Below, piece by piece: positions 5,059 through 25,687 of a DNA stretch of 29,570 bases. A program made the position numbers and the translations under genes. A model generated the notes under the pieces. The model saw only the letters and a program-made list of their open reading frames with translations. It searched no databases and was not told the DNA's origin. The number at the start of each line of letters is the position of its first letter. Position 1 is the stretch's first letter. This stretch comes from Thraustochytrium sp. TN22 (taxonomy: Eukaryota; Sar; Bigyra; Thraustochytrida; Thraustochytriidae): the NCBI GenBank assembly GCA_013306675.1, contig JABLUY010000177.1:52501-82070 (forward strand), given 5' to 3'.

Positions 5059-6924
5059 TCATGGAGAAATGAAGACCTGGCGCGCAAAGTCAACGCCGAG
5101 CTCCTCTGCAAAGGCCGCCAGCGAGCGGTCCTGGCCCATGGCCATGGTTGGCCGCGGCTCGGCGCCCGCTCCGCTCAAGGCCTCAACTACGGCGCGCGAA
5201 GCAGCACGAGCGGCGTCGCCGGGGCTTTGGAATACGTGCCTGTCGTTGCGCGACCATAGGTGGAAGGCAACGTGCTGCGTGGGGCTGAACATGTCGAACC
5301 CGTGCGTGAAGAGTCGCGCGGCCATGAGCACCTCCTCGCCAAAGAAAAGGTGCTCGAGGTCGACGTACGGGACCTTCTCCACGAAGGTGTTGCCGCGAGA
5401 GAAGTTGAAGCCGCCAGCGAGCAGCTGAGTCCGCGCCATTCCTGTAGACATGGCCTCGTCCTTGTCATGGAAAGTTTCGTCGAGGCTGATACCCTTGAGA
5501 CGCAATACGCCGTCTTCCGTGCCAAAGTGGGACTTGCTTAGAATCGGTGCCGAAGCGAGGCCCATCGAAGCCAGCAGTGTCACATTCTTGGGGACCACAG
5601 GCGCTCCCGAGGTCGCGTCCAGCTCGAAGGCGTACGGGTACGTCGAGATGACGGCGCGCCCGTAGGCAGACCGGCGCTCCGCTGCCATCAGGCAGTCGAT
5701 GAGCTTGTCGTCCCAGCCCTCAACGAACTGCATGTGCGCGTCTACGTTGAGCAGGTAGCGCTCGCCGGCGTAGAGCGCCTGGTGAATAAGGCGCCGCGCC
5801 GTGCAGGGCCCGGAGGCACGGCTCGCCGGCACAGCCAGTGCGCGCACCAGGCCACGAGCAACGTGGTCGGCCAGCGCCTCGCTCTCGGCGGCGCCCTTGC
5901 CGAAGAACTCCTCCGGCGCATCGTTCTGGTAGAAGATGCCGACGCGGACGCGGTCCGGGTGTGCCGCCTTGGCGAAGAGGTCCGCCACGGTCACCGCGGA
6001 CAGCGGGTCGCGAAAGCTCGGAATGGCCACAAAGATTGTGTCGCCCGCCGGCGCCGCCGATCTGCCGAGCGCGCGCGGCACCGTCGGCGGAGTACCGTAG
6101 AACCAGCACGTGATGGCCCAGCGCGGCCGCGAGGCCGACGCGAGCACCTCGTGCTCGAGGCACGACTGAAAGACGAGCAGCCGATTGGCGACGGGCGCCA
6201 CGTCTTGCTGACGGCCGCCGCCGTTCGCGTAAAATACGCGCAGGGCGCCGCCATCGCGGCCCTGGTCCCAGCCTGGGTTCAGGTACAGCAACGCGGTGAC
6301 CACGCGCGCTGCGCCGTCCTCGCCGTGGCTCTCCGTGTCGCGGTGCTTGATGTAGCCCTTGGAGTTCGCCGGGTAGCACGCGAGCTGCACGCTGACGCGG
6401 TCCGACAGCGCAAAGCTCCCGCGCAGCTGTGCTTGCAAGCGCTTCAGCATCGCGACGGCCGCCGAGAACATGGTCCTCTCGCGGTCCCAGGCCGCCGTAA
6501 TCCACGCGATGCGGTCTCCTCGTATCGCCGCGTCCTTCCACTGCGCCTGCGCGCCCATTTGCGCCTCTCGCAGGTCATCCGGGCCTCGGTCGCGCACGGC
6601 CGCGCAGAGCGCGTCGCACTCGTCCTGCTGGAGCGCGCCGTCCACCACGCACCACCCGAATTCCTCGCTCGACAGCGCAAATTCGCGCTGCGCGTCCAGC
6701 ACGGGCAGCCTCTGGTGCTTCCCCGCGCCCTCGACGTCGCCCCCCGCCGGCTGCCGCTCCTGCAGGTGCCCGTGCTCCAGGTGCTCGCGCTGCAGGTGCT
6801 CGCGGTCCTCCTCGCCGCCGCCGCGCGCCTGCTGCTGCTCGCTGGCGTCGCGGGGCTGCTGCAGGGGCGGCGCCGGCGCGCCCAGAAAGGCGGCCAGCCG
6901 CGCCTGCACGGCCGCGGAGTCCAT
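5059..6924 (-). CDS. Prolyl 4-hydroxylase-GlcNAc-transferase fusion (Skp1 PhyA-Gnt1-like)
   Basis: A 621-residue protein joining two enzymes. Residues ~85-275 are a 2-oxoglutarate/Fe(II) prolyl 4-hydroxylase domain: iron ligands fit HRD (H194, D196) and H258 in LEHEV, with R268 as likely 2OG-binding residue. Residues ~293-600 are a GT60-type GlcNAc-transferase: TIFVAIPSFRDPLSAVTVAD opens the domain, LLNVDAHMQF (D395-H397) is the metal/sugar-nucleotide motif, and EEVLMAARLFTHGFDMFSP is a late conserved block. In Dictyostelium and Toxoplasma, PhyA and Gnt1 are separate cytosolic enzymes that hydroxylate one Skp1 proline and then add GlcNAc, an oxygen-sensing modification of SCF ligases. No signal peptide or membrane segment is seen, fitting a cytosolic site. 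The first ~80 residues are Gln/His-rich linker. The start is the ATG in a strong GCCGCCATGG context; the frame continues upstream but would overlap the divergent gene. Confidence 0.85.
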   Translation of the reverse strand: MDSAAVQARLAAFLGAPAPPLQQPRDASEQQQARGGGEEDREHLQREHLEHGHLQERQPAGGDVEGAGKHQRLPVLDAQREFALSSEEFGWCVVDGALQQDECDALCAAVRDRGPDDLREAQMGAQAQWKDAAIRGDRIAWITAAWDRERTMFSAAVAMLKRLQAQLRGSFALSDRVSVQLACYPANSKGYIKHRDTESHGEDGAARVVTALLYLNPGWDQGRDGGALRVFYANGGGRQQDVAPVANRLLVFQSCLEHEVLASASRPRWAITCWFYGTPPTVPRALGRSAAPAGDTIFVAIPSFRDPLSAVTVADLFAKAAHPDRVRVGIFYQNDAPEEFFGKGAAESEALADHVARGLVRALAVPASRASGPCTARRLIHQALYAGERYLLNVDAHMQFVEGWDDKLIDCLMAAERRSAYGRAVISTYPYAFELDATSGAPVVPKNVTLLASMGLASAPILSKSHFGTEDGVLRLKGISLDETFHDKDEAMSTGMARTQLLAGGFNFSRGNTFVEKVPYVDLEHLFFGEEVLMAARLFTHGFDMFSPTQHVAFHLWSRNDRHVFQSPGDAARAASRAVVEALSGAGAEPRPTMAMGQDRSLAAFAEELGVDFARQVFISP

Positions 6925-6962
6925 GGCGGCCGCGCGAAGCGGGTTTGCCGCGGGAGCGGGAG
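6925..6962. promoter_or_regulatory. Ultra-short divergent promoter between PhyA-Gnt1 and RHL1-like gene
   Basis: Only 38 bp separate the minus-strand ATG (6922-6924) from the first plus-strand ATG (6963-6965). If the plus gene starts at the better-context ATG at 7056, the spacing is 131 bp. Either way the genes must share a bidirectional promoter or have overlapping 5' UTRs. Confidence 0.5.
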
Positions 6963-8228
6963 ATGCCCGAGGTGACGATGCCCGCCCTGATGATGATGGC
7001 TGCCGCCGCGGCGCGCAGGCCCCTAACCGCGGCGCGCGCCAACGACGGCCGCGCCATGGTGCGCAGCGCGCGGGCCCGGGCGCCCTCGTCGTACCGGGAG
7101 GAGGCGCTGGAGAGCGGCGAGAGCGACGGCGACGACGGCAGCGAGTTTGGCGGCGGCGACGGAAGCGACGGCGGCGGCGGCGGCGGCGTCGTGGAGCTGG
7201 AGGACAGCGACGAGGACTTCGAGGACGCCGGCGAGGCGACCAAGGCGAAGAAGAAGCGGGGTGCCGGCGGCGCCGCTGCCAAGAGCACTGCGGCCAAGGC
7301 GAAGACGCCCAGAGCGACCAAGGCGACCAAGGCGGCAAGGACGCCCAAGACGCCCAAGACGCCCAAGACGCCCAAGACGCCCAAGACGGCTGCCAAAACG
7401 ACCAAGGCCACCAAGGCGACCAAGCCCAGGAGCGCCGCGGGTAAGCGCAGCGGCGCCAAGGGCGATGCCGTGACGTTGCTGGGAGATGACAAAGGCGACG
7501 ACGATGCTGAGGCGGCCAAACCAAAGGGTCGCGGCGCCGCCAAACCCGCCACCACCGCCGCCAAGAAGCGCGGGCCCAAGGTGGTGCAGACCAAGGCGGA
7601 CGAGGAGGCGGCCAAGATTCAGAAGCAGGCCGTCACGGACGCCGAGAGGCTGTCCATGATGAGCGTGACGCGCACTGAGGTGGCGGCAGACCAGGGCCTG
7701 CCCCTGCCGCGAGCCGTCGCGCTCTGCAACAACCGCGAGGTCAAGGTGCAGGGCCAGGCGATGAAACGTAAAGTGCAGCGCCTGCTCGTGCTGCCGGGCC
7801 AGCTTTCGCTGCAATCCATTGGTACGTGCGGCACCATCGAAGGCTTCACCACCACGTCGCCCGTGCTCAACCTGGAGTTCGCGCCTGAGCGGCGCACGCT
7901 GCGCTTTTACGGCTCGCTCGTCCACCCGGAGGCCAACTACATGATGGTGAACTTCGACGGTAGCTCCAAGAAGGGAACGACGCTCGAAGCGACGTACGAC
8001 GAGGTGGTGGTCTTCACCTCCTTCGAGTGGATTGAGCTGGACGGCGCGGGGCGCGAGGTGGCCATGGCGCCGCGCGCCAGCGTCGACGCGCTCGACTGGA
8101 GCGACCCCGCCTTCCTTGGGCTCACCTATCAGGCGCGGTCGCTCGCGTCCGTGGACCCAGACGCCGCGCCACCGCCCTCAAGCAAACGCCGACGGCTAAC
8201 CTTTGAGGATGGCGGCGACGACAACGGC

Positions 8229-10740: not shown

Positions 10741-10741
10741 T
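10736..10741 (-). terminator. AATAAA poly(A)-signal-like hexamer overlapping NUP188 stop codon
   Basis: On the minus strand the sequence reads TGAATAAAAC, so the A of the TGA stop is the first base of AATAAA. It is the only canonical AATAAA I noticed at a gene end here, so its use is plausible but unproven. Confidence 0.4.
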
Positions 10742-13700
10742 CATCGTTGCAAACTATCGTTCATCATGCGCCAGACGAGGGCGGCCTCGTCGAGCGTCCA
10801 CTGGGAGTGGTCAAGACCTTGCAGCGTGTCGAAGTTGACCTCAGCGCCCGCGAGGTGCAGCGCGCGCGCCGTGACCTCGGCCAGCGCCGGCGATACGCGC
10901 GAGTCGAGCGCGGCGTTGCGCAGCAGCATGGGCGGGAGACCCACGCCCTTCTTCTCGGACATGACGAGCATGTGGCGCAGGAGCGCGTCCGCCAGCTCAC
11001 TAGCGAGCGGCAAATGCGCGTTGATGGCGGCTACGCCGCCCAGCACGACCGGCTCGTGCTCGAGCGCCAACAGGAGCGCAGCCAACAGCGCGAAGGAGCC
11101 GCCGCTCTGGAAGCCACCCACGAAGATGCGGCCGGACGGCACATTGTGCGCCAGCACGGCCTGGCGCACGAGGCGCACGGCGTCGACGACCACGTCGCGG
11201 TCCTCGGCCCGCGGCGTGACGAGCGCAAAGAGCTCGCGCACCGCGGGGAAGGCGCTTCCGACCGAGGCCTGCGCCGCGCTGGACTTCTCACCGCGCTTGG
11301 CCTGGGCGGCGCGCAGACGCTTGAACTCGTCCGCGGCATCCGCGAGCACGCGCGTGACCGTGGCCGGCCCACCGGGCGTGCGGAGCGCCTCGTCAAGGCC
11401 GGCGGCCAAGGGCGCCTCAGAGGGTGCCAGGCCGAGGTCCGGCACAATGAAGCGCGTGTGCGGCATGCCAAAGTCGCGGAAGACGGCCTCCCAGGCCGCA
11501 GGGTGCTCGCCCGGCCCCGGCAGCCAGATGAGGACCGCGTCCGCGTGGTCGAGGCCCGGCCCTAGCTCGCGCGTGAGTGCGAGCCGGAAGCGCTTGTGGT
11601 CGGCGCCAGGGGCGTCCACCTCGTGCGACGAGGGCCGCTTGGGCGGAATGGCGACGGTGGTCATAGCGGCCGTGGGGTCGCTGGACGAGGGCGCGTCGCT
11701 GCGGACGGCGAAGCGCGCGAGTGCCGCGTCCACGCGCGCCTTGAGCACCGAGATCATCTCGGCGTCTGAGGTGGCGCCGTCACCCAGGTCCTCGAGGTAG
11801 CCGCCGATCTTCTCGCTGGCGACCGACGCGCGGGCACGCAGGTCCTCGAGCGCTTGCTCAGTGAGCGAAAAGTCGGCGCCCGGGTCAGAGCCCTGCGCCG
11901 CGCGGCGGTCGCGCTCGTGCAGCGTGAGCTCAAGCGAGGTGAGCAGCACGTAGAGCGCGTTGGAGCTCAGGTACGCGAGCGCACGGCGCCAGCGCTGCGA
12001 GCTCGGATGCCGCACGTCGTGCGGGTCGTCGGCAGCGCTGTTGGCACCCACCTTGGCGGCCAGGTGCAGGCGGTACTTGACGTAGCCGAGCAGCGAGAGC
12101 AGCGTCGCCACTGTCGGCGTGTGTGTGGCGGCCTGCGCGCTGCTCGCAAAGAACGAGGCATCCGAGAAGCTGTTCGAGAAGGCGCGCGGGCGGCCCGTGT
12201 CGTGCGCGGGCCACTCCGGCTGGTGCAGGGCAAAGGGAATCATGGCCTTGCCCCAGTCGCGCACTGGCAGCACCTGCAGCGTCTGTTCGTCGATTTGCAG
12301 CTGGCGCGGCGGCTTGACAATATGGCGGGACCGCAGCAGCGCGAGCAGCTGCTGCACGACGGTGCAGACGCGGTACTCGATGGTGACGTGCAGCACGGTG
12401 ATGTCGCCGTCGGCGAGCTGCGACATGGCAACGCGGGAGGCCTGCGGCGCGGCGTCGACCTCCACCTCGCGCAGCTCCTCAATGACGCTCGAAGTGCGAA
12501 TCATGGCCTGCTGGCCCTCGCGCGGCGTGGCGGCCAGCGGGCGGCGCTGCAGCGACTCCATGACTGGCTGGCGGTCCTGCTCGATCTCAAAAGGCGTCAC
12601 GGGCCGCGTGCAGATGCACAAGCGAGGCACGGCCTTGGACACGGTGAAAAAGGTACGGACGAACTCCTCCAAGAAGCACGTCCGCCGCGCGCCTTCGCTG
12701 CCGACCACCAGCTCGTGCAGCATGCTCCAGGCCGCCGTCAGCAGCGGCGCGTACAGCGCAGGGCGCAGGCGCCAGCGCTGCGTGTGGTTGGCCAGCGCGC
12801 GCAGCACGCTCGTGGTGCGCGCGGCCTCGTCCAGCGCGCCCAGCGTCAGCACGCTGTCTTGGAGCTTGTACGCCTGCAGCGTGCCCAGCAGCGTGCCGCG
12901 GTGCGCCGCCACAAAGTCCAGCGCCGGCTCCACGTTGCGGTTCTCCTTGCTCTTCTTGTTCGCGTCCAGCAACGTCGCGGCCAGCTGCAGCGCCTCGCAC
13001 CACACCAGATGCGCCGGGTCGCGCTCGCCCTGCACCGAGTACCCGCGGAAGGTGATGGACGAGGCGTTGTCGCGATTGTCCAGGCTCGCCAGAAACGGCT
13101 TGTCGCCGGCCACGCCGCGCAGGACCGGGTCCGCGGCCAGCGCGCGCAGCACATGCAAGCGCCCCAGATGCTCCGACACGCCCGCAGGGTCGACACGCGC
13201 GGCCGTCTCGAAGATGCTCAGCATCAGCTGCATGCGCAGCAGGCCGCGCTTGAGCTGCTGCGCGGCCTCGAAGCCGGCCTGCCGCGAGATGGGCCGCCTG
13301 GACGCCTCGCTGTTGCCCGCGCCCGCGCCCGCGGAAGCATCGCCGCCCGCGGGCTCCGCCGACGTCGCCCCAGCGGAGGCGCTCGCCATCGCGATCCCGG
13401 AGCCGGACGGCGCGGACGGATCCCCGTCCGCGCCGGACTTGCGCTGGCCGAGGATGTCCCAGAGACGGCGACGATCGGAGGGCTTGTAGATGCCCATTTC
13501 TTGGAGTGCGGCGTGGTCCAGCGAGCGGAGATGGTTGACGCTGGTGATGCCAAAGTCGAGGAAGAGGTGGATGACGCTGATTTCCACGAGGCCGTCCTCG
13601 TCCGAGTACGCAGCCACCTTGGAGCCCACGAGGTCGCGGTAGTTGCGCGATGACCGGTGCTTGGAGCGCAGCTCGTAGTGCTTGTAGCCGAGCTGGCGGG

Positions 13701-16700
13701 CGATCTCGCGCAGGCGCACCTCGGTGTCACGGCGCTGGCGGCGCGCGCCCTGGTCATCGTTCGAAGAGGCCTCGCGCGTCTCGTCGCCCGGAACCCCGTC
13801 CTGGTCATCCGCGCTGCCGAGGCCGGCGCTCTCGCCACTGCCGCCGCCGTCGCCCACAGTCTGGGCCGCGCCCGAGAACTGCACGGCGCCCGGCGTCGCG
13901 GCACTGAGCACCTTGACACTGAGGTCACTCAGACCGTTGCGCTCGAGCCAGACGAAGAGGCCCTGGCGGTCCGCGTAGAGGCGGCCGAGCGTCTCTGAGT
14001 GCTGCACGAAGGTCTTGTGCAGGAGCGCAAAGAGCTTCTGGTCCATGAGCGCGCGCATTGCGTCCGCCTGCGCCGGCGTGAGGGCCGAGAGGATGAGCGC
14101 CACGAGCGGCAGCCCGAGGTCGAGGACCTGTGTCTCGTCCGAGAAGCTGCTGAGTACCTTGGCCAGCGGGGTCAGGCAACGCACGCGCTGATCCGCAAGC
14201 TCGGCGCAGGGCTTGATCTGGTCGCCGTCGTCGTCACCTGCCACCTGGAAGAGCATAAGGAGGCCAGCCAGCAGCGAGCGCGTGACGCCCAGCACGAAGA
14301 GGCGCACGGCGCTCGCCGGCGAGACCGGGCTGGCCAGGACTGCCAGGCCCGGCCCTGCCTCGGCGGCCTCCGCCGCGGCCGCGGCCGGCCCGCCCGAGTT
14401 GGCGCCAGACGCCATGGCCTGCGGCTGCGAGGCGGCAAAGGCCAGGAGGTTCTCCAGGCAGCGCGTGATGGACTGAATGAGCTGGACGGCGCCGGGCGAG
14501 GACGGGTCTTCCGAGTGCAGCACAAGCTTCTCGCCGCGCATGGAGCGCGGGCGCTTGCGAAAGACCTGGGCGCCGCGCGCCGCGGCGTCGTCGACGCGGT
14601 CGAAGACCTTGAAGTGAAGCATGGAGGTGAACATCTCGGCAATCTCCAGCAGGTAGCGCTGCTGGTGGTTGCTGGCGAAGAGCGCGGCGTCTGCGGCGCG
14701 CAGGTTGGCCGCGAGCTCGGCCACGAGCGTGTACGAAGTCATGTCGCCCCAGTGGCGCGAGCCGAGCGTGCTGAGCGTGCGCGTGCGACGCAGGTGCGGC
14801 GCAGGCGAGCCGACGTCCTCGGGCGCCGGCTGGTCGTCCCATGTGATGAGGCAGCGCGTCTCCATGTACGTCTTCCACGCGTGCAGGAGCATGAGGCGCG
14901 CCTCGGCGAGCGCGAGCGCGCCGTTCTGGAGACGCACCGCCCGAACCAGCCCGGTCTCGTGCGGGAAGACGCGCTGCAGCATGTCGACGTTGTACTGCTG
15001 CGCCGCGGCGAGGCCGAAGCGGTGCTGGCGGCGGTCGTGCAAAAAGGGATCGGGCGCCGAGGATGCATCGATCGCCGAGACGCGGCGAAACGCGTCGAGG
15101 TTGACGGGCGTGGCCGTGACCGCGCGCGTGGGCGTCGAGGCGACGCTGACGCGCGGGTACTGCTCGAGCCAGGCGCTGTCGCGGTCCTTTTGGCGCAGCG
15201 ACCGCAGCAGGTCCATGAAGGCGCCGGCGACGCCGTTGGTCTCGATCTCCAGCGTCATGACCTCCAAGGCCCAGGCGCGCGCACAAATCTGGTTTTTATG
15301 CGCGGTCATCTCGTCGGCCGTGACGAGGGAGTCCCTGGAGAGCACCATGGCAGTCTCCCCGGTAAGCGCGTCGTCGTCCTGCTCCACGTCCTGGGACAGA
15401 CTGTAGGCGAGCAGATTCCAAAAGTCAGCCTCAAGCTCCAGCAGGCGCGCAATGATGGTCGAGTAGCGTTTGTACCAGAGCGCACCAAGGAACTCGAGCG
15501 CCACCAGGTAGAGGCGCGGCTTCTCGCGGAAGTTGGATGTCTCGCGCAAGATGGACAGGATGCAGAGCAGGATGGCGTCGTTGTGCAGGAGCATGGCGGC
15601 GAGGCCAGGCTCGAACTCGAGCGCCGTCGTGAGCAGGCCGAGTGTGGCGGTCTCGCCGTCCGCAATGGAGGTAGCGACGTCGTCCGGGAGGCGGGCGGCC
15701 CGCGAGAGCATGGCCACGACGCTGGGCATGGGGCCGGCCGGCCGGTGCGGCTGCTTGGCGCGGCGGAAGTGGTCGAGCGAGAGGACGAAGTTCTCCAGCA
15801 CGCGCACTGCCAGGCGCTGGATGGGGAAGCGGCATGGAATATGGTCGGTGACGCGCGGCAGGCCGATGTAGGTGGCCACGGTGGCGGCGAGGTCCTGGCG
15901 GCAGAGGAGCGCAATCTTCTGCGTGCCGAAGTCGTCGAGCTCCAGCACGGAGGCCAGCAGGTTGAGCGAGGCTGCGACGAGCTCCTGCGCAAAGGAGGCG
16001 CGCGGCGCCTTGAGCGTGAGCACGTTGGCGATGAGCGCGTCCTGCGTGGCGGTGTCGTTCATGAGGTCGTCCATAACCTTGGCGCGCACGCCGTCGAGGT
16101 CGAAGGGCATCTCCACGCAGCGATGCAAAATGTGCGTGGTGCGCGTGCCGATGTCCCAGCGCTGCGCCTGCGAGGCGAAGCGCCAGCCGCGGTGGCTGCG
16201 GAAGACCTCGCGCACGAGCTTGACGGCGTGGAAGACGAAGCGCTTGGTCTGCGCGCGGCGGTTCTGCAGCGAGAGCCCGAGCACGCGGAAAAAGGCGCCG
16301 TCGCCGAGGCGCAGCAGGTTCATGAGGCGCACCGTGTCGACCTCGTCGTGGCCGTCCTCGGGCGCCAGCTTGCGGAGCGAGGCGTCGTCCACGGCGCCAT
16401 GGTAGCCGAGCAGCTCGAGGCGGCTGCGCAGGTCGTGGCGCGAGCAGCGGTCGGCGCAGTCCTGGAAGGCGACATGGAGCTCCGACGAGTAGTGCTCGCG
16501 CTCGACCTGAAGCACGAGCGTGTTGATGAGGTCGAGCCCGTGCAGGAGCGCCGGGTAGGCGCCCGCGGCGGTCTCGCGCTCCAGCTCGCGGCGCATGGCG
16601 GCCAGGACGGCGAAGGAGGACGCCTGGTCCGCCTCGTTGGCCAGCACCGTGAGCACGTGCTGCGGAAAGTGCGCGGCGAGGTTGCGCAGCGTCTCGACAA

Positions 16701-18639
16701 GGCGCGGGTCGTCCAGGTGCGCGCGCACGATGCGGTGCGTGATCTTGACGATGTCGAAGCGCTTGGCGAGCTCCACCTTGTCGGCGAAGCGCACGAGATT
16801 GCAGAAGAGCGCGAGGCTGTCGAGGCTAACCTTGTGGCGGACGTAGGCGAGCGCGTACATGGCGCTGTTGGCGCTCGCCACGAGCGCGCCGCAGAGCTCC
16901 AGGAACGCGCGCGGCACGTGGACCAGACGGTCCAGCAGCAGGCGCAGCGGGTGCGCGGCCTTGCGCCAGCAGGCCTCGCAGGCCTCTGGGTGGCCGGCGT
17001 AGGCGGCGGCGCAGAGGCGCGCCATGAAGACGCAGTCCTCCTCAGCCTCGAGAAACTCGTGAAGCGAGAAGTTCTTGAGCGCCGCCACCATGAGGTCGCG
17101 CAGTGGCACGGCAAACTCGGGCTGGTCCCGCAGGCCGTCGAGCGCCTCGAAGCCGGCCGCATAGGCCTGCTGGAAGACGTCCGGGTTCTGCGCAAAGACG
17201 GACCAGGCAAGTGTGACGGCAGGCGCGCCGAGCTGGTCCACAGCCTGCGTGACCTCGTCGCCGTAGCCGGCGCGCAGCTTGGCGAGCAGCAGCAGGATAC
17301 GGGCCATGTACGGGGCGCGAGCCGCGAAGCTGGTGCGCTTGGGCCGCAGCAGCCTGAGGAGCAGCGTCTTCTCGTGCTCCACGCGCATGTGATAGAGGAT
17401 GCGCAGGAGGAGGCGCTCGAGGTTCTCCGGCAGCGCCCGAGAGCGCTCGAGCGTGGCGATGACTCTTGCCATGATCTTGGGGCCGTGGCGGTCCACAAAG
17501 TCGATCGCAAAGTTGTGCCAGCGCTCCTCGCTCCCGGCGAGGTTGTCGTTGTCGTCGTCGGCGCGCGCCAGGAGCACGACGGCGTTCAGCAGCGCGGCCT
17601 GCTCGCCCTGGAAGCGGCGCTCGAGCTCTTTGAAGAGCGCCTCGGAGCGGCGCACGCCAAAGACGATCTCGTTCGTGTTGTCGCGCGCCAGCTTGATGTC
17701 GGCCTCGAGCGTGCTGCGGAAGCGCTCGTCGCTGAGCGAGATGAGCCCGACGACCGAGTCGATGGCGTCCAGCTCCGCGAACGACCGCACGCCGCGCAGC
17801 GCCTGCTGCACGGCGGCGCGCTTGGCCTGGCTGCGCCGCACGACGCGCAGGATTTCCTGCCGTCGCTGGTCGGCGCGCCGGATACCGAGGCCGGTCTCCT
17901 CCTTGGCCGCCAAAAAGCGCGCCACCAGCGCGGACGCCGCATCGGGCTTGAGGTCCAGCCGCTCGCCGACCTCCTCCACGAAGGACCGGCGCGGCTTGGA
18001 CGAGGACGCCTGCGGTTGTTTGGCCGGTGGCGCCGGCGCCAGCGCCAGGGCGTCCGACTCCGTCGGCGCGCCGGTGCTGGGGCTGTTGCTGGCCGGGTCG
18101 CCGGTGGCGTCGGTCCTGGACTTCTTGAAGCCGTCCAGCAGCTCAACGATGGAGTCCGGAAAGTACGCGTGGATGTCCTGGCCCTCGAGGCTCGAGACGG
18201 CGCCCATGCCGCCGATGCGCTTGCCGGCGCAGGCCAGCGCAAGCGCTTCCGTGGCGAACCAGTCGTGGCCCACCGTCTCCAGGTTCAGCACCTCGCGCAG
18301 CACCTCCTGCACCTCCTTTCCGTGCGCCAAGGCGCCCTCTGCCTCGTCCGCCTCGAGCTGCAGCGGCCTCGTCTCCTCCACGACGGCCAGCGAGAACCCC
18401 TTTTGCGGCGTCACCATGCCGACGCCCACGCCGCTCCCTGCGCTGCTGCCGGCCCCGCCAAACCCAAGGCCCGTGCCGCCGCCGAAGCCGCCGCCGCTGC
18501 CGCTGCCGCTGCTGCCGCCGCCGCTGCTGCTGCTCATCCCGCCGCCGCCGTCGCTGCTGCTCTCGGTGCCCCGCCGCTTGCCGCGCCCGTGGCCACCGCC
18601 GCCGCGGCCGTCCTCGTCGTCGTCCTCATCCCTGCCCAT
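10741..18639 (-). CDS. NUP188: NUP188-like nucleoporin with internal SAM and C-terminal thioesterase-fold domain
   Basis: A 2632-residue uninterrupted protein. The helical body resembles inner-ring nucleoporin Nup188. ALEFLGALWYKRYSTIIARL followed by ADFWNLL parallels the human FLHALW...KFWENL block, ICARAWALEVMTLEIE parallels a following helix, and around residues 1870-1990 VEPALDFVAAHRGTLLGTL...LDEAARTTSVL...LLTAAW parallels the human EALDFV...LEEAD region. TLLSLLGYVKYRLHL and a helix ending HERDRR match the Nup188 C-terminal end. Residues ~1680-1733 (VIHLFLDFGITSVNHLRSLD...EMGIYKPSDRRRLWDIL) are a SAM domain. Residues ~2356-2632 look like acyl-protein thioesterase/carboxylesterase (VLIWLPGPGEHPAAW, RIFVGGFQSGGSFALLAALL, ALDSRVSP, GLDHSQW). 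The start is chosen at the ATG 18639 (GGCATGG); an in-frame ATG at 18801 would add 54 residues. The first ~100 residues are Gly/Ser/acidic low complexity. Confidence 0.7.
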   Translation of the reverse strand: MGRDEDDDEDGRGGGGHGRGKRRGTESSSDGGGGMSSSSGGGSSGSGSGGGFGGGTGLGFGGAGSSAGSGVGVGMVTPQKGFSLAVVEETRPLQLEADEAEGALAHGKEVQEVLREVLNLETVGHDWFATEALALACAGKRIGGMGAVSSLEGQDIHAYFPDSIVELLDGFKKSRTDATGDPASNSPSTGAPTESDALALAPAPPAKQPQASSSKPRRSFVEEVGERLDLKPDAASALVARFLAAKEETGLGIRRADQRRQEILRVVRRSQAKRAAVQQALRGVRSFAELDAIDSVVGLISLSDERFRSTLEADIKLARDNTNEIVFGVRRSEALFKELERRFQGEQAALLNAVVLLARADDDNDNLAGSEERWHNFAIDFVDRHGPKIMARVIATLERSRALPENLERLLLRILYHMRVEHEKTLLLRLLRPKRTSFAARAPYMARILLLLAKLRAGYGDEVTQAVDQLGAPAVTLAWSVFAQNPDVFQQAYAAGFEALDGLRDQPEFAVPLRDLMVAALKNFSLHEFLEAEEDCVFMARLCAAAYAGHPEACEACWRKAAHPLRLLLDRLVHVPRAFLELCGALVASANSAMYALAYVRHKVSLDSLALFCNLVRFADKVELAKRFDIVKITHRIVRAHLDDPRLVETLRNLAAHFPQHVLTVLANEADQASSFAVLAAMRRELERETAAGAYPALLHGLDLINTLVLQVEREHYSSELHVAFQDCADRCSRHDLRSRLELLGYHGAVDDASLRKLAPEDGHDEVDTVRLMNLLRLGDGAFFRVLGLSLQNRRAQTKRFVFHAVKLVREVFRSHRGWRFASQAQRWDIGTRTTHILHRCVEMPFDLDGVRAKVMDDLMNDTATQDALIANVLTLKAPRASFAQELVAASLNLLASVLELDDFGTQKIALLCRQDLAATVATYIGLPRVTDHIPCRFPIQRLAVRVLENFVLSLDHFRRAKQPHRPAGPMPSVVAMLSRAARLPDDVATSIADGETATLGLLTTALEFEPGLAAMLLHNDAILLCILSILRETSNFREKPRLYLVALEFLGALWYKRYSTIIARLLELEADFWNLLAYSLSQDVEQDDDALTGETAMVLSRDSLVTADEMTAHKNQICARAWALEVMTLEIETNGVAGAFMDLLRSLRQKDRDSAWLEQYPRVSVASTPTRAVTATPVNLDAFRRVSAIDASSAPDPFLHDRRQHRFGLAAAQQYNVDMLQRVFPHETGLVRAVRLQNGALALAEARLMLLHAWKTYMETRCLITWDDQPAPEDVGSPAPHLRRTRTLSTLGSRHWGDMTSYTLVAELAANLRAADAALFASNHQQRYLLEIAEMFTSMLHFKVFDRVDDAAARGAQVFRKRPRSMRGEKLVLHSEDPSSPGAVQLIQSITRCLENLLAFAASQPQAMASGANSGGPAAAAAEAAEAGPGLAVLASPVSPASAVRLFVLGVTRSLLAGLLMLFQVAGDDDGDQIKPCAELADQRVRCLTPLAKVLSSFSDETQVLDLGLPLVALILSALTPAQADAMRALMDQKLFALLHKTFVQHSETLGRLYADRQGLFVWLERNGLSDLSVKVLSAATPGAVQFSGAAQTVGDGGGSGESAGLGSADDQDGVPGDETREASSNDDQGARRQRRDTEVRLREIARQLGYKHYELRSKHRSSRNYRDLVGSKVAAYSDEDGLVEISVIHLFLDFGITSVNHLRSLDHAALQEMGIYKPSDRRRLWDILGQRKSGADGDPSAPSGSGIAMASASAGATSAEPAGGDASAGAGAGNSEASRRPISRQAGFEAAQQLKRGLLRMQLMLSIFETAARVDPAGVSEHLGRLHVLRALAADPVLRGVAGDKPFLASLDNRDNASSITFRGYSVQGERDPAHLVWCEALQLAATLLDANKKSKENRNVEPALDFVAAHRGTLLGTLQAYKLQDSVLTLGALDEAARTTSVLRALANHTQRWRLRPALYAPLLTAAWSMLHELVVGSEGARRTCFLEEFVRTFFTVSKAVPRLCICTRPVTPFEIEQDRQPVMESLQRRPLAATPREGQQAMIRTSSVIEELREVEVDAAPQASRVAMSQLADGDITVLHVTIEYRVCTVVQQLLALLRSRHIVKPPRQLQIDEQTLQVLPVRDWGKAMIPFALHQPEWPAHDTGRPRAFSNSFSDASFFASSAQAATHTPTVATLLSLLGYVKYRLHLAAKVGANSAADDPHDVRHPSSQRWRRALAYLSSNALYVLLTSLELTLHERDRRAAQGSDPGADFSLTEQALEDLRARASVASEKIGGYLEDLGDGATSDAEMISVLKARVDAALARFAVRSDAPSSSDPTAAMTTVAIPPKRPSSHEVDAPGADHKRFRLALTRELGPGLDHADAVLIWLPGPGEHPAAWEAVFRDFGMPHTRFIVPDLGLAPSEAPLAAGLDEALRTPGGPATVTRVLADAADEFKRLRAAQAKRGEKSSAAQASVGSAFPAVRELFALVTPRAEDRDVVVDAVRLVRQAVLAHNVPSGRIFVGGFQSGGSFALLAALLLALEHEPVVLGGVAAINAHLPLASELADALLRHMLVMSEKKGVGLPPMLLRNAALDSRVSPALAEVTARALHLAGAEVNFDTLQGLDHSQWTLDEAALVWRMMNDSLQR

Positions 18640-18775
18640 GCCTCCGCGCGGCCGCGCTCGCGCTCGCGCGCGCGCGCCCTCCGCCGCGCCGCGCCGGCCG
18701 CGCGCTGCGCTGCTCCGCGCGCCGCCGGCCCGCTCCGCCGCGGCCTGGCCTTGGTTTGCCTCGCTTGCTCCGATT

Positions 18776-18788
18776 GATTTGATTTGAT
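18776..18788 (-). promoter_or_regulatory. ATCAAATCAAATC motif, NUP188 side
   Basis: Read on the minus strand, this is identical over 13 bases to the motif upstream of the HDAC gene, and oriented the same way relative to its own gene. It lies 137 bp upstream of the chosen ATG. If the ATG at 18801 is used, it is coding (QIKS). Confidence 0.3.
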
Positions 18789-19192
18789 CTCCTCCCGCCA
18801 TCAGTTGTGAGGGTCTGCCACCGAGAGACCGAAGCCTCGACGCGGAGAGCCCAAGCGGCTGGTCGTTCGCATAGAGGCGGGCCACCACGGACTGCCGTCA
18901 TCACTGGCACGTACGCATGGCATATCAAAAAAACAACCTTCCCGTAAGGCCCCTCCCCGTATGGCTGGCGTTCACCAAATCCACCGGGCTGGGATGGGCG
19001 GCGCGCACGCCGCGAGCATTAGCTATTTTCGCGGGATGCGGCGGGGCACGGAGCCGCGGGCGCACAGGCCGGGCGGGCGCGCGCGCGGCGGGCGGGCGGC
19101 GGAGTCCCGCTTCGCGGCGGCCGGCGCGCGGGCCTCGCGGCGCTGCCGCCGCTGCGCTGCGAGCGGGCAGACTGACTCAGGGCCGGCAGCCT

Positions 19193-19291: not shown

Positions 19292-19339
19292 CGCCCGTGA
19301 CGCGGCGCGGGGGGCGGCGCGGGGGCGGCGCGGCGCGCG

Positions 19340-22081
19340 ATGGCGGGCGGCGGTGAGGCCGGCGGCGAGGCCGCGGCCGCGGGCGGCGGCGGTGCGGCGC
19401 CGGGCGCGGAGGACGCCTACGGGCTGCACGAGGACTGGGGCGAGGAGGAGGACGAGGAGGAGGACGAGGAGCTGGAGGCGAAGCCCGGCGCCAAGCGCGC
19501 GAGAGAGGCCGGCGCCGCCGCAGCGGAGGGCGCCGGCGCCGCTGGGCCCGGCGCCGCCGCCACGGCAGCAGCCACGGCAATGGAGGAGGACGAGGACGAA
19601 GAGGACGACGAGGAAGATGATGACGATGACGACGACGACGACGATGGACCCGGCCGGTTTGGCGGGGACCAGGGCGCGGACTTTCTGCTGCACAACGCGA
19701 CGGAGAAGGGCGACGCGGAGGCGGTGAAGAGGCTGGTGGAGCTGCACATGGCCGCGGAAAGGTTCCAGGAGCACCGCAAGACCATCGAGGAGGAGAACAA
19801 GGAGGACCCGGAGCGCGCCAAGCTGCTGCTGCTGCGGTGGGAGGCGTCGCACCGCGCGCGGCTGCTGGAGAAGCGCGACCATGAGGGCTGCACGCCCCTG
19901 CACGTGGCGGTCCTGTGGCAGCAGCGCGAGACGCTCCGCGGTCTTCTAGAGGCCGGCGCGAAGAAACGCGCCACGTGCAACCTTGCGCCACTGACGCATC
20001 TGATCCTGGGGGTCGGGTCGGTGGAGCGGTCGCGCGCCTTCGCCTTGGAGGCGCTCGAGACGGTGCTGGCGGCGCAGGACCACCCGGCCGTCGTGGCGGG
20101 GAGCCCCGACGGCACGGACGCGGTGGACCTGGGCGCCAAGGACGATCTGCAGCGCACGGTGCTGCACCTGTGCGCCGAGTACGGCCTGGTGGAGGCGCTG
20201 CGCACGCTGGTGAGGCGAGGCGGCCTCGACGCGCTGTGGCTGCTGGTTGACCTGGAGGGCCGCACGGCCCTCCACGTGGCGTGCCGCGCGCAGCAGGCGG
20301 AAGTGGCGCGCGTCATTCTGCAGGCGGTGCCGGCCGACGCGCGCAAGGCGTTGCTGACGCAGGGCGACTCGTACGCCATGACGCCACTGCATGTGTGCGC
20401 AGCCAACGGGTTCACGGAGGGAACGGCGCTGCTGGTGGAGGCGGACGCCGGTCTGCGCGAGCGCAAGGACGCTCGCGGCCGCCTGCCGGTGGACTGGGCA
20501 CGCCTGCACGGCCACGCGGCAGACGCGGCCATCCTCGCGGTGCCGTCGGTGGGCGGGACCACGGCGGCCCCGACCGCGGCCGCGGAGGGCAACGGCAGCG
20601 ACGGCCGCGCCAAGGGCAAGACGCTGATCTTGGCGCACGAGATCTGCGAGCGGCACTATACGTGCCGGCCGAGCTGGACACGCGCGCGCGGGTTCTTTGA
20701 CGTACCGCCAGAGAACGTGAACCGGCTCAAGGTGCTCCTGAACGCGGAGACGGGGAGCTTGCGCGCCTCGCGGCTGGCGCCGGCGCTGGCGTGGGGCATG
20801 CCGCGGCAGATCGAGATGGCGGACGTGCTCCGCGTGCATGACTACGCGTACATTTCCAAGATTCGCAAGTTCGCGGCGCAGCTGGACGAGGACGAGATCG
20901 GCGAGCTGGACGGCGACACCTCCATCTCGGGCAAGAGCTTCGAGGCGGCGCTGTACGCGGCCGGCTCGGTGTGCGACGGCATCGACAGCGTCATGCGCGG
21001 CGACCACCGCAACGTGTTCTGCGCGGTGCGGCCGCCGGGCCACCACGCAGGCCCACGCGGCGTCGTGACGAGCGCGCTGGACCCGAACGGTTCATACGGC
21101 TTTTGCTTGCTGTCCAACGCCGCCATCGGCGCGGCCTACGCACGCAGCCTCTACCGGCATCAGGGCGTGCGCAAGGTGGCCATTGTGGACTTTGATGTGC
21201 ACCATGGCAACGGCACCGAGGCGTGCGTGCGCAACGTCGTGCCGGGGGAACACAAGTCGCGCGTGGAGATGGCCTTTTGCGACGTCCAGGTCACGCAGCC
21301 CACGTACAAGCCGTGGCGCGGCGAGGACGACCCGGATTGCATCTTTTTTGCGTCCATCCACGGCTTCGGCAAGCGCGTGCCGGGCCTCGACCCCGACCCG
21401 CTCGCGCCGCCGCGCGTCGGCATGTTCTACCCGAGCGACGGCGCCAACTACGGCTTCGGCGAGTACTCCAAGCCGGCGCCCGGCGAACCGCACATCGTGG
21501 ATGTTGGCCAGAACAGCAAGAGCCGCTCCGAGTGGCGCACGAGCTGGCGCGTGCACGTGCTGCCGCAGCTGGCGGCCTTTGAGCCGGACCTCATCATCAT
21601 CTCCGCCGGTTTTGACGCGCACATGCGCGATGACATCAACATGGGCTACCTCTCCGTGCTGGAGCACGACTATTACTGGCTCACACGCCAGCTCGTCAAG
21701 ATCGCCAACAAGACCGCCCACGGCCGCATCGTTTCTGTTCTCGAGGGCGGCTACAAGATCCAGGGCCAGGTCGTCTCGCCCTTTGCCCGCTCGGTTGGGG
21801 CCCACGTTGCTGCCCTCGTGGACGCCTCCCCGCACGAGGTGTACGACGCCGCCGATGCTGCCTGGGAGGAGCAGCACGAGGCTAGCCTGGCCGCTGCGGC
21901 CGCCGCCGCGGCTGGCGTCGACCCCAACGCCGAGCCCGCGCGCAAGCGCCCGCGCCGCGCCGCCGCCAGCAAGGAGGTCGACTACGTCAAGCTCGACCGC
22001 GAGTTGCAGCTCGAGCAGCAGAAGCAGAAGGAGCAGGCACAGCAGGCCGCTGCTGCGCTGCCCGCGCCCGCCGCCGAGTGA
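19340..22081 (+). CDS. Class II histone deacetylase with N-terminal ankyrin repeats
   Basis: A 913-residue protein. Residues 1-110 are Gly/Ala and Asp/Glu-rich. Residues ~112-400 carry ankyrin repeats (DFLLHNATEKGDAEAVKRLV, GCTPLHVAVLWQQRETLRGL, RTVLHLCAEYGLVEALRTLV, RTALHVACRAQQAEVARVIL, MTPLHVCAANGFTEGTALLV). Residues ~425-830 are a zinc deacetylase of the class II type: RPPGHHAGPRG (H568, H569), DFDVHHGNGT (zinc ligands D619 and H621), SAGFDAH (D759) and LEGGY (Y805, the transition-state Tyr lost in class IIa enzymes). All catalytic residues are intact, so activity is expected. A basic C-terminal patch (RKRPRR) near 868 could be a nuclear signal and is followed by a Gln-rich helix. The ankyrin module probably selects substrates or partners. 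A 65-bp tandem duplication spans its stop codon. Confidence 0.9.
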   Translation: MAGGGEAGGEAAAAGGGGAAPGAEDAYGLHEDWGEEEDEEEDEELEAKPGAKRAREAGAAAAEGAGAAGPGAAATAAATAMEEDEDEEDDEEDDDDDDDDDDGPGRFGGDQGADFLLHNATEKGDAEAVKRLVELHMAAERFQEHRKTIEEENKEDPERAKLLLLRWEASHRARLLEKRDHEGCTPLHVAVLWQQRETLRGLLEAGAKKRATCNLAPLTHLILGVGSVERSRAFALEALETVLAAQDHPAVVAGSPDGTDAVDLGAKDDLQRTVLHLCAEYGLVEALRTLVRRGGLDALWLLVDLEGRTALHVACRAQQAEVARVILQAVPADARKALLTQGDSYAMTPLHVCAANGFTEGTALLVEADAGLRERKDARGRLPVDWARLHGHAADAAILAVPSVGGTTAAPTAAAEGNGSDGRAKGKTLILAHEICERHYTCRPSWTRARGFFDVPPENVNRLKVLLNAETGSLRASRLAPALAWGMPRQIEMADVLRVHDYAYISKIRKFAAQLDEDEIGELDGDTSISGKSFEAALYAAGSVCDGIDSVMRGDHRNVFCAVRPPGHHAGPRGVVTSALDPNGSYGFCLLSNAAIGAAYARSLYRHQGVRKVAIVDFDVHHGNGTEACVRNVVPGEHKSRVEMAFCDVQVTQPTYKPWRGEDDPDCIFFASIHGFGKRVPGLDPDPLAPPRVGMFYPSDGANYGFGEYSKPAPGEPHIVDVGQNSKSRSEWRTSWRVHVLPQLAAFEPDLIIISAGFDAHMRDDINMGYLSVLEHDYYWLTRQLVKIANKTAHGRIVSVLEGGYKIQGQVVSPFARSVGAHVAALVDASPHEVYDAADAAWEEQHEASLAAAAAAAAGVDPNAEPARKRPRRAAASKEVDYVKLDRELQLEQQKQKEQAQQAAAALPAPAAE

Positions 22082-22165
22082 GGGGAGGCAATGAACCAGA
22101 GGCACAGCAGGCCGCTGCTGCGCTGCCCGCGCCCGCCGCCGAGTGAGGGGAGGGAACGAACCAGG
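22036..22165 (+). repeat. 65-bp tandem duplication spanning the HDAC stop codon
   Basis: Copy 1 is 22036-22100 and copy 2 is 22101-22165; they differ at 3 of 65 positions, all in the last ~12 bases. The unit contains the last ~14 codons and the TGA, so the second copy carries a duplicate C-terminal coding end in the 3' UTR. Confidence 0.95.
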
Positions 22166-22365: not shown

Positions 22366-25300
22366 CTAGTTGGACGAGGGAAAGCAGCGTTCCAGAAGAT
22401 GCGCGATGAAGTTGCCCTCCTCGTGGAAGCGGCGACGGACGGGCAGGGACTCATTCTCGTCCAAGAGGCCCTTGTAAAAAGCCGGCGCAGCGTCGAGGTA
22501 CTCGCCAAAGGGAGCGTAGCTCATGCGGTGCGTGTCCGGCTCGTGCACCACGACGATGCGCTTGCCCGCGTTGAGCGCGCATTGCAGCTCCAGACAGACC
22601 GCCTTGCTCGCTAGCGCGCCCTTGGTGAGGATGAGCAGGTAGACGAGCGAATGGCGCACGCCCTCGAGCATGGCGGGCTGGTTGAGCTCGCCGCGGTAGG
22701 CCTGGTCGAACCAGACCTCGAGGCCGCGGCGCTCGAGCTTGTGCTTGAGATTCTCCGCCAGGTCGCCGCCCGTCGCCTGCACGTGGCTGAGGAAGACGTG
22801 GTGCGTCTCGTCGGGCGGGCGCAGCCTCGGGAGCCGCGCCTGCGGGACGCGCGCGCCGTCCGCGTCCGAATCGAGCGGACCCAGGTCGGGGTCCGCAAAG
22901 AAGGCGGAGAACTCGCGCAGCGAGACGCCAACGTTGTGCACGTCGCGGATGCGCTTGGTGGACTCTGGCGTCCACGCCTTGGCCACCTTGGCGTACGCCG
23001 CAAGCGCGCCTGAGATCGGGCTCACGAGGCGCAGCTCGTACGGCAGGTCGTGGAAGATGGTCTCCTGCTGCTCGCGGAACATGGACACGAGCAGCTTAAT
23101 GACGCGTGCCGGCTGCTCGGCGTTGTCGCGGATACTGATGCGCAGCGCGTCGCCCTCCACCTGGAGCAGAAAGTCGTCCATGCCGAAGGACAGCATGGCC
23201 GTGGCGCGCCCGCACACCGGCACGAGCGGCTCCTCGTCGCCCGCCACCTCGGGCCGCGCCGCGTACTCGGCGCACTGCGACACGAGGCGGTGGAAGACGC
23301 CGTTCGGCAGGTAGAACTTGGAGAAGTCCAGCACGCAGGCCAGCCCCGGCGAGAAGTGGCTCGTGTCCACCTCCTGGCGGCAGTCCGAAAGCAGGCCCGA
23401 GACCAGGTACTGGGCCTCACCCTCGTCCGCGCCCGCGTCCGCGCCCTCGCCAGAGCCCTCACCGAAGCCCCACCGACACAGCAGCATGTTGTCCTCCATA
23501 AAGGCCACGAGGTAGTCCACCTCGACGCCCTCCCAGAGGTACTCGAGCAGGCTGCGCGGCGCAACGGCCTCGAGGCGCAGGCGCTCAAAGGCCGGCAGGA
23601 GCCCGCGCGCCTCGAGCTCAGGGTCCGCAAACACCTTCTGCACGTGGATGTAGTCCGAGATGACACAGGCCAGCTTGTCCAGCAGCCACTGTGGGCTGAC
23701 CACGACGACCCGCGACAGCGCCTCGCTGCCCTGCAGGTGGACCACGACGCCGAGCCCGTGGAAGTACCGCAACATATCGTCCACGTCGCTGCGGTGGCGG
23801 CCGTAGGCGCGCGCCATCTCCACCACGGCCTCGTACGGGAGGTAAGGCTCCGGCTGCTGCAGCAGGTCCTCGTGCACCTTGAGCCACGCCAGCGGCACGC
23901 GCTCGCGCACGTACACCTGCTGCGCCGCCGTCGAGGCGATCACGCCGCGCAGCTCGCTCGCGCGCTCCGGGTCAGGGCTGCTGTTGTTCACCGCGAAGAA
24001 GAGACGCCGGCTCGACGGCTTCACCAGGTGGTACGAGGCCGCCTTGACCTGCTCGCGCAGCACGCGCTCCACCCCGTCCAGGTCACGCACCACGTCCAGG
24101 TAGGTGCCCACCAGCAGCGTCGGCGCCGTCGGCGCGTGCAGCTTGATGCTGTTGAGCCAGAAACGCAGGTACTCCACCGCGCGCGCGCGCCGCCCCACGT
24201 CCAGCACCTCGCGCATGTCGAACACCACGAGGTAGAGGCCCTTGTCCGTGAGGAAGATGTGATGCAGCGCGTAGAACACCTCCTGGCCGCCGTAGTCCCA
24301 GATGGTGAAGCTCACGTCGTCCTCCTGCTGGCTCGCCGCGCGCAGCACCGCCTGGTCCGCGTCCGACAGCGCGAACCGCTCCGCCGTCTCCGCCTCCCCG
24401 AGCAGCGCCACGGCCGGCGCCTCGCTCGCCGCCGACGCCGCCGACGCCGACGAAGACCGCCGCGAGACCGCCTTGCTCAGAGCCTCCAGCACGCGCCGCG
24501 GCACGCTCTTGATGCGGCCCTGCTCCTCCGGGTGCAGCCGCCGCAGCGCCGCCTTGAGCACCTGCATATGGAACTCGCCCTCCTCGTCCTCCAGCTTGCG
24601 CCAGTCCTTGGCGCGCGTGCGGTGCACGTCAGCAACCTCCGTCGACAGGTGCTCCATCACCGCCGCCAGACCCAGCAGAGACCGCAGCAGCGACGTCTTG
24701 CCCGCCTCGCCCTGCCCCACGATCATCAGCTTCGCACGCCCCCACGACCGCTCGTCGCCGCCCTCCACCGCAGCTCGCACCGCCGTGAGCCATTCGTCCC
24801 GCGTAGCACCACCAGGATTCGCCTTGTTGCGCGCACACGCCGCCTCGATGCGGGCGATGAGGCTCGCGTCGGTGATATCGTTTGTGTTGAGGCTTTGGAT
24901 TGATGTCAGCTTGCGCAGAAAATAAGAGAGCCCGGAGAAGCGTGGATACGTACTCATGTATCTTCTGCAGAACGAAGTTGCTCGTCTCGATCGCATCAGC
25001 GAGTGCGCTCGCGCCGACGTTCGTGATTTTGTTTCCATACAGGCTGGTGTTGGTTTTTGCTCGAGTCAGCTTCGTCTGAAAGAGGCTGCGCTTTAGCAAA
25101 CGTACTCAATGTATGTCAAGCTGGAGTTGCTCTCCAAGATCCTGGCGACAACCTTGGCTCCCTCATCTTTGAGTGTGCATGTCTGTAGCCTGTTGCATGA
25201 CGGATGTCAGCCACTTTGCTCTGAGTCATCCAGGCGGAACTAGAGCATGCCAAACGTACTTTAGACTTTGAAGCGTCTTGTTCTTCTGCAAAGCTGGCAG

Positions 25301-25687
25301 GAGGACCTGGACACCTTGAGGGCCTAGGGAGTCGTTCCACCCCAGTCTAAAATCCAAGATGGTCAGTCTTCAAGCGAGCGGCGGCCCGAGCAGACAAACC
25401 AGTCCTAAACGCACTCTAGTTCCGTGACAGTTTGGTTGACCGCCAGCTCCTCCGCAAGCGGCGCGATGTCATCGGGTGTAAATTTTAGCCCCCACATACC
25501 CGCGGATTCTAGGCTGTGCGCACCGCCACTGCACTCGTCAGCATCCGCCAGCCAGCACTCGTCCAGGCTCGCCTCACTCTAGCTCCACGTACTCGATCTT
25601 CTCCGCGCCCCCGCGCATCTCCTCCACCGCTTTCGCAATCCGCGCGCGCCTCTCCTCGACACGCGCGGGGTCCGCAGCCTCATCCAT
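22366..25687 (-). CDS. LRR-Roc-COR-TIR protein (six exons), candidate immune-type receptor
   Basis: My gene model joins exons 25687-25578, 25513-25415, 25346-25260, 25189-25106, 25043-24954 and 24892-22366, giving 998 residues in one frame. Exon 1 starts MDEAADPARV in a charged helix. Exons 2-5 and the start of exon 6 each give one leucine-rich repeat of the LxxNxLxxxGAxxLAxAL type (for example LYGNKITNVGASALADAI and CTLKDEGAKVVARIL). A Roc GTPase follows: P-loop GQGEAGKT (216-223), switch II WDYGGQE (355-361), and GTYLD (419-423) at the base-specificity position. A COR region runs ~440-700 (SPQWLLDKLACVISDYI). Residues 853-998 are a TIR domain (HHVFLSHVQ, LEVWFDQAYRGEL) with candidate NADase Glu at E925 (AVCLELQCAL). 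ROCO proteins are GTP-switched dimers; TIR domains signal or cleave NAD+. The domain order is seen; an immune or cell-death role is inferred. Confidence 0.85.
24893..25577 (-). other. Five short phase-2 introns separating single-LRR exons
   Basis: Introns are 25577-25514 (64 bp, GTGAGG), 25414-25347 (68 bp, GTGCGT), 25259-25190 (70 bp, GTACGT), 25105-25044 (62 bp, GTACGT) and 24953-24893 (61 bp, GTACGT). All end in AG, all interrupt codons after the second base, and all contain CTGAC 13-24 nt before the acceptor. Inner exons are 99, 87, 84 and 90 bp, each a multiple of three. Confidence 0.85.

Follow-up and report, generated by a model that had tools for sequence, protein, structure and literature searches.

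Does a thraustochytrid genome encode a cytosolic receptor laid out like a nucleotide-binding leucine-rich-repeat receptor (NLR) but switched by a GTPase? How single-celled eukaryotes detect infection is, to our knowledge, little understood. The question is raised by one gene in a stretch of 29,570 nucleotides (nt) from Thraustochytrium sp. TN22 (contig JABLUY010000177.1, positions 52,501 to 82,070; hereafter the window). The gene lies on the minus strand at window positions 25687-22366 and encodes leucine-rich repeats (LRRs), a Roc-COR GTPase module and a C-terminal TIR domain in a single protein, which belongs to an expanded family in this genome. Judging from sequence comparisons, we give about even chances to the reading that this family represents cytosolic NLR-like immune or cell-death receptors in which Roc-COR acts as the switch.

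The gene encodes a spliced LRR-Roc-COR-TIR protein

The six exons of the gene encode 998 residues once spliced. The five introns are 61-70 nt long and in phase 2 throughout, with the donor GTACGT in four of them and GTGCGT in one. In our final model the last acceptor is located at 24893 and exon 6 opens with LNTNDI, and the paralogue L010 (L denotes a locus and C a contig in our labelling) has LDDNNITDSSIVAKIDAACARN at the same place. The model is supported by the LRRs of paralogues, which show matching phase-2 acceptors. Two alternative models of the splice borders were ruled out by stops in frame. Pfam matches on the spliced protein, all over their cut-offs, comprise LRR_6 in three stretches (7.8e-14), Roc (1e-17), COR-A (1.9e-12) and TIR_2 (6.6e-10); the TIR family PF01582 stays below its Pfam cut-off (0.23). 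In other family libraries, NCBIfam small_GTP is below its cut-off and a Thoeris model scores 0.011. Roc lies directly before COR within one exon and both the P-loop and the G3 motif are intact, as expected for a ROCO protein; the Gln of switch II sits where Ras has a Gln. We count three clear LRRs, a partial or capping one in exon 2 and half of another at the start of exon 6. These findings together bear out much of the original prediction for this locus, which had the coordinates, the 998 residues and the five introns right, gave a fair estimate of "about five" LRRs, and correctly described an intact Roc P-loop and switch II, a COR domain and a C-terminal TIR domain with Glu-925 as the candidate catalytic glutamate. 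The protein may be cytosolic: inspection by eye and hydropathy revealed neither a signal peptide nor a clear membrane span, with no dedicated predictor run.

Compared with solved structures, the Roc-COR part is most similar to LRRK2 (2.9e-15), followed by the prokaryotic entries 4wnr (9.6e-13) and 3dpu (1.1e-10); Rac and other small GTPases appear at about 1e-5. Neither NB-ARC nor NACHT was matched by Pfam in the spliced protein, where Roc-COR is found in their place. The protein may therefore work like an NLR without being one.

A large ROCO family in the thraustochytrid genome

We searched the genome (37.9 Mb in 453 contigs) for paralogues. With exon 6 as the query, 69 matching stretches including exon 6 itself were found, of which one gene may yield several. 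COR-A, used as the marker of ROCO genes, identified 46 loci at E <=0.001, 42 of them over the cut-off, and these counts are lower bounds. Some pairs of paralogues, with a DNA identity of 94-98%, could represent alleles, so that 46 may overstate the number of distinct loci. At 36 of the 46 loci a TIR_2 match is located within 2 kb downstream on the same strand, one of them (C4:66112) being a copy with stops. A diverged TIR could be aligned at four more loci (C229, C285:3707, C11:177129 and C421), and the remaining six are C221, C285:9265 (cut by the contig end), C11:296154, C215:26266, C62 and C121. NB-ARC and NACHT, the two families of signal transduction ATPases with numerous domains (STAND) that were searched, give 2 and 8 hits genome-wide.

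In an unrooted tree of 25 Roc-COR parts, the group containing the window's gene (16 aligned sequences, or rows) separates from a second group of 9 rows with a support of 100/99, and members with a TIR domain are present in both. For residue-level scoring we used 21 window-like rows; L026 and L029 have no TIR in the frame taken, and L027 falls in the second group of the tree. The P-loop pattern GxxxxGK[ST] is visible in 14 of these 21 rows and in all eight rows examined from the second group. It is not visible in the frame taken for L015, L017, L021, L023, L024, L025 and L030, several of which are contig-end cuts or frame splits.

TIR domains are found well beyond this family. Most TIR_2 hits (84 of 123) are unlinked to any COR-A locus, some being located in frames of more than 1500 residues, and the genome thus seems to encode many other TIR proteins. 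Two further arrangements were seen. The adjoining paralogues L031 and L032 (C288:27021-35417) have a TIR match on both sides of Roc-COR. Near the start of another contig (C160:1247-4627), four TIR hits are spaced exactly 1043 bases apart with one in-frame TGA each, a tandem array of TIR cassettes that lacks any COR hit.

The TIR domain resembles enzymatic TIRs and retains a glutamate

We compared the TIR domain with TIRs of known structure. A search with the single sequence finds tir-1/SARM1 at 0.0023. A profile built from nine TIRs of the family matches tir-1 (4.3e-8), SARM1 (5e-7) and AbTIR (2.1e-5) most closely, followed by Cat1 (5.1e-4), RPV1 (6.1e-4) and RUN1 (0.0012). None of the 30 sequences listed at E <=0.1 carries the name Toll-like receptor (TLR) or MyD88. 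The best PADLOC match is a SAVED-TIR model (5.8e-5), located over the TIR domain. By sequence, both the family profile and the Pfam match point to the TIR superfamily. AlphaFold2, run on the TIR domain alone without an alignment, reached a mean predicted local distance difference test score (pLDDT) of 40.9, and the TIR-like order of strands and helices in this model is of little weight. No prokaryotic or viral relative was confirmed, in scans with only two short patterns each from which absence does not follow.

In the alignment with the nine-TIR profile, the family glutamate (Glu-925 in the window's protein) falls on the glutamate of the DWVHKE segment of SARM1. This residue from helix alpha-C is present in all 19 scored TIRs from the window-like rows, even where the BB-loop region has decayed. 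Seven of eight rows from the second group can be aligned here and have the glutamate in a CRxEF context, in an alignment that is less sure. The TIR may thus belong to the type that cleaves nicotinamide adenine dinucleotide (NAD+).

Most LRRs are single-exon cassettes in phase 2

We investigated how the LRRs of the family are encoded. When phase 2 is assumed, an exon finder reports 60 and 54 exons; such a finder cannot itself prove the phase, and we therefore made a test without that requirement. LRR halves were picked at 42 fetched loci by peptide pattern alone, yielding 100 distinct ones, and splice phase was scored afterwards. An AG acceptor exactly in phase 2 precedes 87 of the 100 LRRs, against a background of 6.2%, with 1 preceded by AG in phase 0 and none in phase 1. 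A GT is found at the expected donor place in 79 (background 9.3%), and 77 have both acceptor and donor. The 13 LRRs without a phase-2 acceptor come from L019 (1), L028 (5), L058 (6) and L057 (1), and L019, L028 and L058 seem to hold several LRRs per exon. Because 87 of the 100 start at a phase-2 acceptor, we conclude that most LRRs of the family are one-exon cassettes of 84 or 87 nt, if not in every member. The 84-nt length predominates in window-like genes and the 87-nt length in the second group. The cassettes are symmetric in phase 2 and the reading frame is thus kept when one is duplicated.

Such duplications are visible as tandem arrays. Tandem Repeats Finder, run on stretches of four paralogues, reports near-identical arrays in three: C11 (period 315, 10.4 copies, 98% match), C86 (period 285, 6.8 copies, 98% match) and C321 (period 315, 4.9 copies, 93% match); the fourth, C38, has 1.9 copies at 84%. 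C387 contains at least 11 diverged single-LRR exons in succession, and contig C17 terminates inside an LRR exon. Downstream of two paralogues, single-LRR exons occur in a further run, at L034 (4369-5034 of the locus reverse complement) and L036 (4886-5156), and more LRR genes may therefore cluster there.

Amino-acid variation is elevated at concave LRR positions

Positions 2, 3 and 5 of the LxxNxI motif lie on or beside the concave strand of an LRR. They are the most variable positions of the 87-nt type, with entropies of 3.47, 3.60 and 3.15 bits. The corresponding values for the 84-nt type are 3.57, 3.25 and 3.87 bits, and positions 26 (3.59) and 20 (3.42) are comparably variable. We next compared ratios of nonsynonymous to synonymous substitution rates (dN/dS) from exon pairs at identity cut-offs of 0.6, 0.7, 0.75 and 0.8. 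At the concave codons 2, 3 and 5, dN/dS is, in this order, 1.42, 1.19, 1.44 and 1.66 for the 84-nt type and 1.39, 1.62, 1.64 and 1.76 for the 87-nt type. Scaffold positions show values of 0.13-0.28, the remaining positions of the 84-nt type 0.32-0.84 and the helix positions of the 87-nt type 0.41-0.78. Values of 1.04-1.33 are also found at codons 26-27 of the 87-nt type, and of 1.25-7.57 at its codons 21-24, where there are few synonymous changes. Amino-acid change is elevated at the concave LRR positions, in a suggestive pattern.

In the arrays, exons vary more than introns in all three cases when every unit is counted. With the edge units dropped, variant sites number 5/87 in the exon and 1/228 in the intron for C11, and 3/87 and 2/228 for C321.

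Weighing the receptor reading

A number of observations count against an NAD+-cleaving receptor of this kind. The Trp at position -4 from the catalytic glutamate, which is important in SARM1 and occurs also in plant TIRs but is not known to be required in all TIRs, is absent from all 19 scored family members: 16 have Ala in its place, and Val, Tyr and Gln occur once each. The VW Trp of the beta-B strand is lost and its flank decayed in seven of the 19 (L014, L016, L019-L022 and L028). One 19-residue stretch at residue 906 reaches a hydropathy of 1.72, just over the usual membrane-span cut-off of 1.6; it is located inside the TIR core and we therefore read it as a buried strand. Five of 26 loci (L021, L027, L028, L031 and L032) have no LRR with a phase-2 acceptor; in L028 the LRRs share a single exon, and for L021 the flank may be too short. 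When longer upstream stretches were taken for 14 paralogues, no cassette was found upstream of C402 (one doubtful cassette was found upstream of C217). The exon pairs behind the dN/dS values are non-independent and dS is also elevated at the concave codons, so that the pattern is suggestive and no formal test. Finally, the C86 array with edge units dropped has 0/87 variant sites in the exon and 3/198 in the intron; the exon excess is thus found in only two of three arrays and is not part of our main evidence.

Alternatively, the TIR domain might be a non-enzymatic assembly module that recruits other TIR proteins, as in Toll-like receptor signalling. The missing -4 Trp and the decayed beta-B/BB-loop regions fit such a role, for which the 84 TIR_2 hits away from COR-A loci would provide many possible partners. 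However, the glutamate is kept in 19 of 19 TIRs, including those with a decayed BB-loop, and the best profile matches are NADases, with neither TLR nor MyD88 named among the 30 chains listed. We regard pure assembly as unlikely. The NADase-type TIR of the original prediction is upheld as far as closeness to enzymatic TIRs and the retained glutamate are concerned, but lacks the -4 Trp of SARM1.

The family might instead recognize prey, self or mating partners, in feeding or allorecognition, with the TIR domain as a signalling output. Diversity at concave positions and expansion of the family would fit this too. Internal ligands, on the other hand, fit better with a protein in which no signal peptide or clear membrane span is seen by eye or hydropathy, and the combination of TIR, LRR and switch in one protein is, from general knowledge, typical of immunity. 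We consider recognition of this sort improbable, slightly more so than pure assembly. That the expansion is driven by repeats and of little function, with tandem or segmental duplication in a GC-rich genome inflating the copy number, appears very improbable: near-identical arrays, copies truncated at contig ends, some broken frames and near-identical pairs that may be allelic copies separated in the assembly would fit, yet many copies have long open frames, the P-loop, switch II and glutamate are conserved, and so are scaffold positions, with dN/dS near 0.2.

We thus return to an NLR-like immune or death receptor switched by Roc-COR. The original prediction of such a layout holds for the arrangement of domains. 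Receptor-like evolution is supported by the 46 ROCO loci, the LRR cassettes and their arrays, the variable concave residues and the few NB-ARC and NACHT hits; as defined by NB-ARC or NACHT, the protein itself is not an NLR. The genome search for paralogues suggested by the original prediction shows, with these loci and arrays, that the single protein described there belongs to a large family.

Comparison with known systems

We compared the family with other proteins that join these domains. Plant TNLs (TIR-NB-ARC-LRR) have a STAND ATPase switch, with the TIR first and the LRRs last, and form a large family with variable LRRs. They resemble the present proteins in combining TIR, nucleotide switch and LRR in one chain and in their large variable-LRR family, but here the switch is a Roc-COR GTPase and the order is reversed, with N-terminal LRRs and a C-terminal TIR. 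SARM1 and nematode tir-1 share the TIR with an alpha-C glutamate and are the closest solved TIRs by sequence; their sensor and assembly parts, however, are ARM and SAM domains, and they have the -4 Trp that is missing here. LRRK2 and prokaryotic Roco proteins such as that of Chlorobium tepidum likewise have LRRs followed by Roc-COR and are the closest solved relatives of this part. In them a kinase or no effector follows COR, in contrast to the TIR found here.

Brown algae have the nearest known relatives, a set of exon-shuffled LRR-ROCO genes (PMC11378527). In Ectocarpus and Saccharina, these have 72-bp phase-2 exons encoding a 23-residue LRR, show positive selection on the concave side and have been proposed as immune receptors, with LRR-ROC-COR given there as the sole architecture (PMC11378527). 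Both families are stramenopile LRR-Roc-COR proteins in which each LRR has an exon of its own, in phase 2 at either end, and concave residues vary. The present family differs in its exons of 84, 87, 90 and 114 nt, its ribonuclease-inhibitor-like LRRs, its copy number and the TIR domain after COR. The same paper gives several other SAR species, among which diatoms, oomycetes and Schizochytrium aggregatum are named, at most four ROCO copies each, and mentions a TPR-ROCO-TIR protein in the red alga Chondrus crispus (PMC11378527). The latter also joins TIR with Roc-COR, but has tetratricopeptide repeats (TPR) in place of LRRs, and the passage describes no cassette exons for it. In the available part of PMC7159879, Roc-COR occurs once, in the reference list. 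No paper joining labyrinthulids with ROCO, or thraustochytrids with a TIR domain, was found in a search that most subscription journals lie outside.

Features of the gene and its neighbourhood

The features of the gene are listed in Table 1.

Table 1. Exons, motifs and domains of the LRR-Roc-COR-TIR gene, in window positions
Feature	Position	Strand	Description
Exon 1	25593..25687	-	start codon at 25687; N-terminal 31 residues
Exon 2	25415..25528	-	114 nt; partial or capping LRR; both ends phase 2
Exon 3	25260..25346	-	single LRR, LGWNDSLGPQGVQVLLPALQKNKTLQSL, 87 nt; LRR_6 match in protein
Exon 4	25106..25189	-	single LRR, 84 nt; LRR_6 match in protein
Exon 5	24954..25043	-	single LRR, 90 nt; LRR_6 match in protein
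Exon 6	22366..24892	-	half LRR, Roc, COR, TIR and stop codon in one open exon
P-loop GQGEAGKT	24694..24717	-	residues 216-223
Switch II WDYGGQE	24280..24300	-	residues 355-361; Gln at Ras-like position
G4-like GTYLD	24094..24108	-	residues 419-423
COR-A match	23641..23895	-	residues 490-574; end of COR not fixed
TIR domain	22369..22797	-	residues 856-998; Pfam match 856-940
Glu-925, candidate catalytic Glu in helix alpha-C	22588..22590	-	within CLELQCAL

Other genes were noted along the way. A frame of 3044 residues, read as part of a full-length polyunsaturated fatty acid synthase, has a PfaA match over the cut-off whose hits recur along the carrier-domain part, and is adjoined on the opposite strand by a frame of 2083 residues similar to the PfaA model. 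Such a two-frame arrangement is known from thraustochytrids and points to a thraustochytrid with a GC-rich genome as the probable source. At window positions 5059-7629 on the minus strand, a 2OG-Fe(II) oxygenase and an N-acetylglucosamine (GlcNAc) glycosyltransferase share one frame, much like the fusion of prolyl hydroxylase with Gnt1 known from Skp1 modification. A 2717-residue frame (10741-18894, minus strand) has a C-terminal Abhydrolase_2 as its sole Pfam match at 0.001. An exact 54-base direct repeat (22035-22088 and 22100-22153), noted as 65 bases apart, spans the stop codon of an ankyrin-histone deacetylase gene (19301-22078).

A possible mechanism and its implications

We regard the following mechanism as the most likely one for this domain layout. 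The N-terminal LRR horseshoe would bind a ligand through its variable concave face, and binding would shift the Roc-COR GTPase to another nucleotide or dimer state. As the switch, Roc-COR would fill the role that NB-ARC or NACHT has in NLRs. Switching of Roc-COR would bring the C-terminal TIR domains together. The clustered TIRs may then, by means of Glu-925, cleave NAD+ or make an NAD-derived signal, either of which would arrest or kill the infected cell. New specificities could arise by gene duplication together with duplication of the phase-2 symmetric single-LRR exons.

More tentatively, and with somewhat less than even confidence, we propose that this single-celled stramenopile may maintain a large, fast-changing immune repertoire of Roc-COR-TIR proteins. 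Its arrays of frame-neutral single-LRR exons would grow, shrink and diversify on the ligand face, a GTPase would stand in for the STAND ATPase of NLRs, and a TIR acting as an NADase would kill infected cells or arrest them. If this is true, the plan of the NLRs, in which a variable sensor, a nucleotide switch and a cell-killing effector are combined, would have been reached with a different switch. The family of about 46 loci would then also suggest, by analogy, which output to seek in the LRR-ROCO candidates of brown algae.

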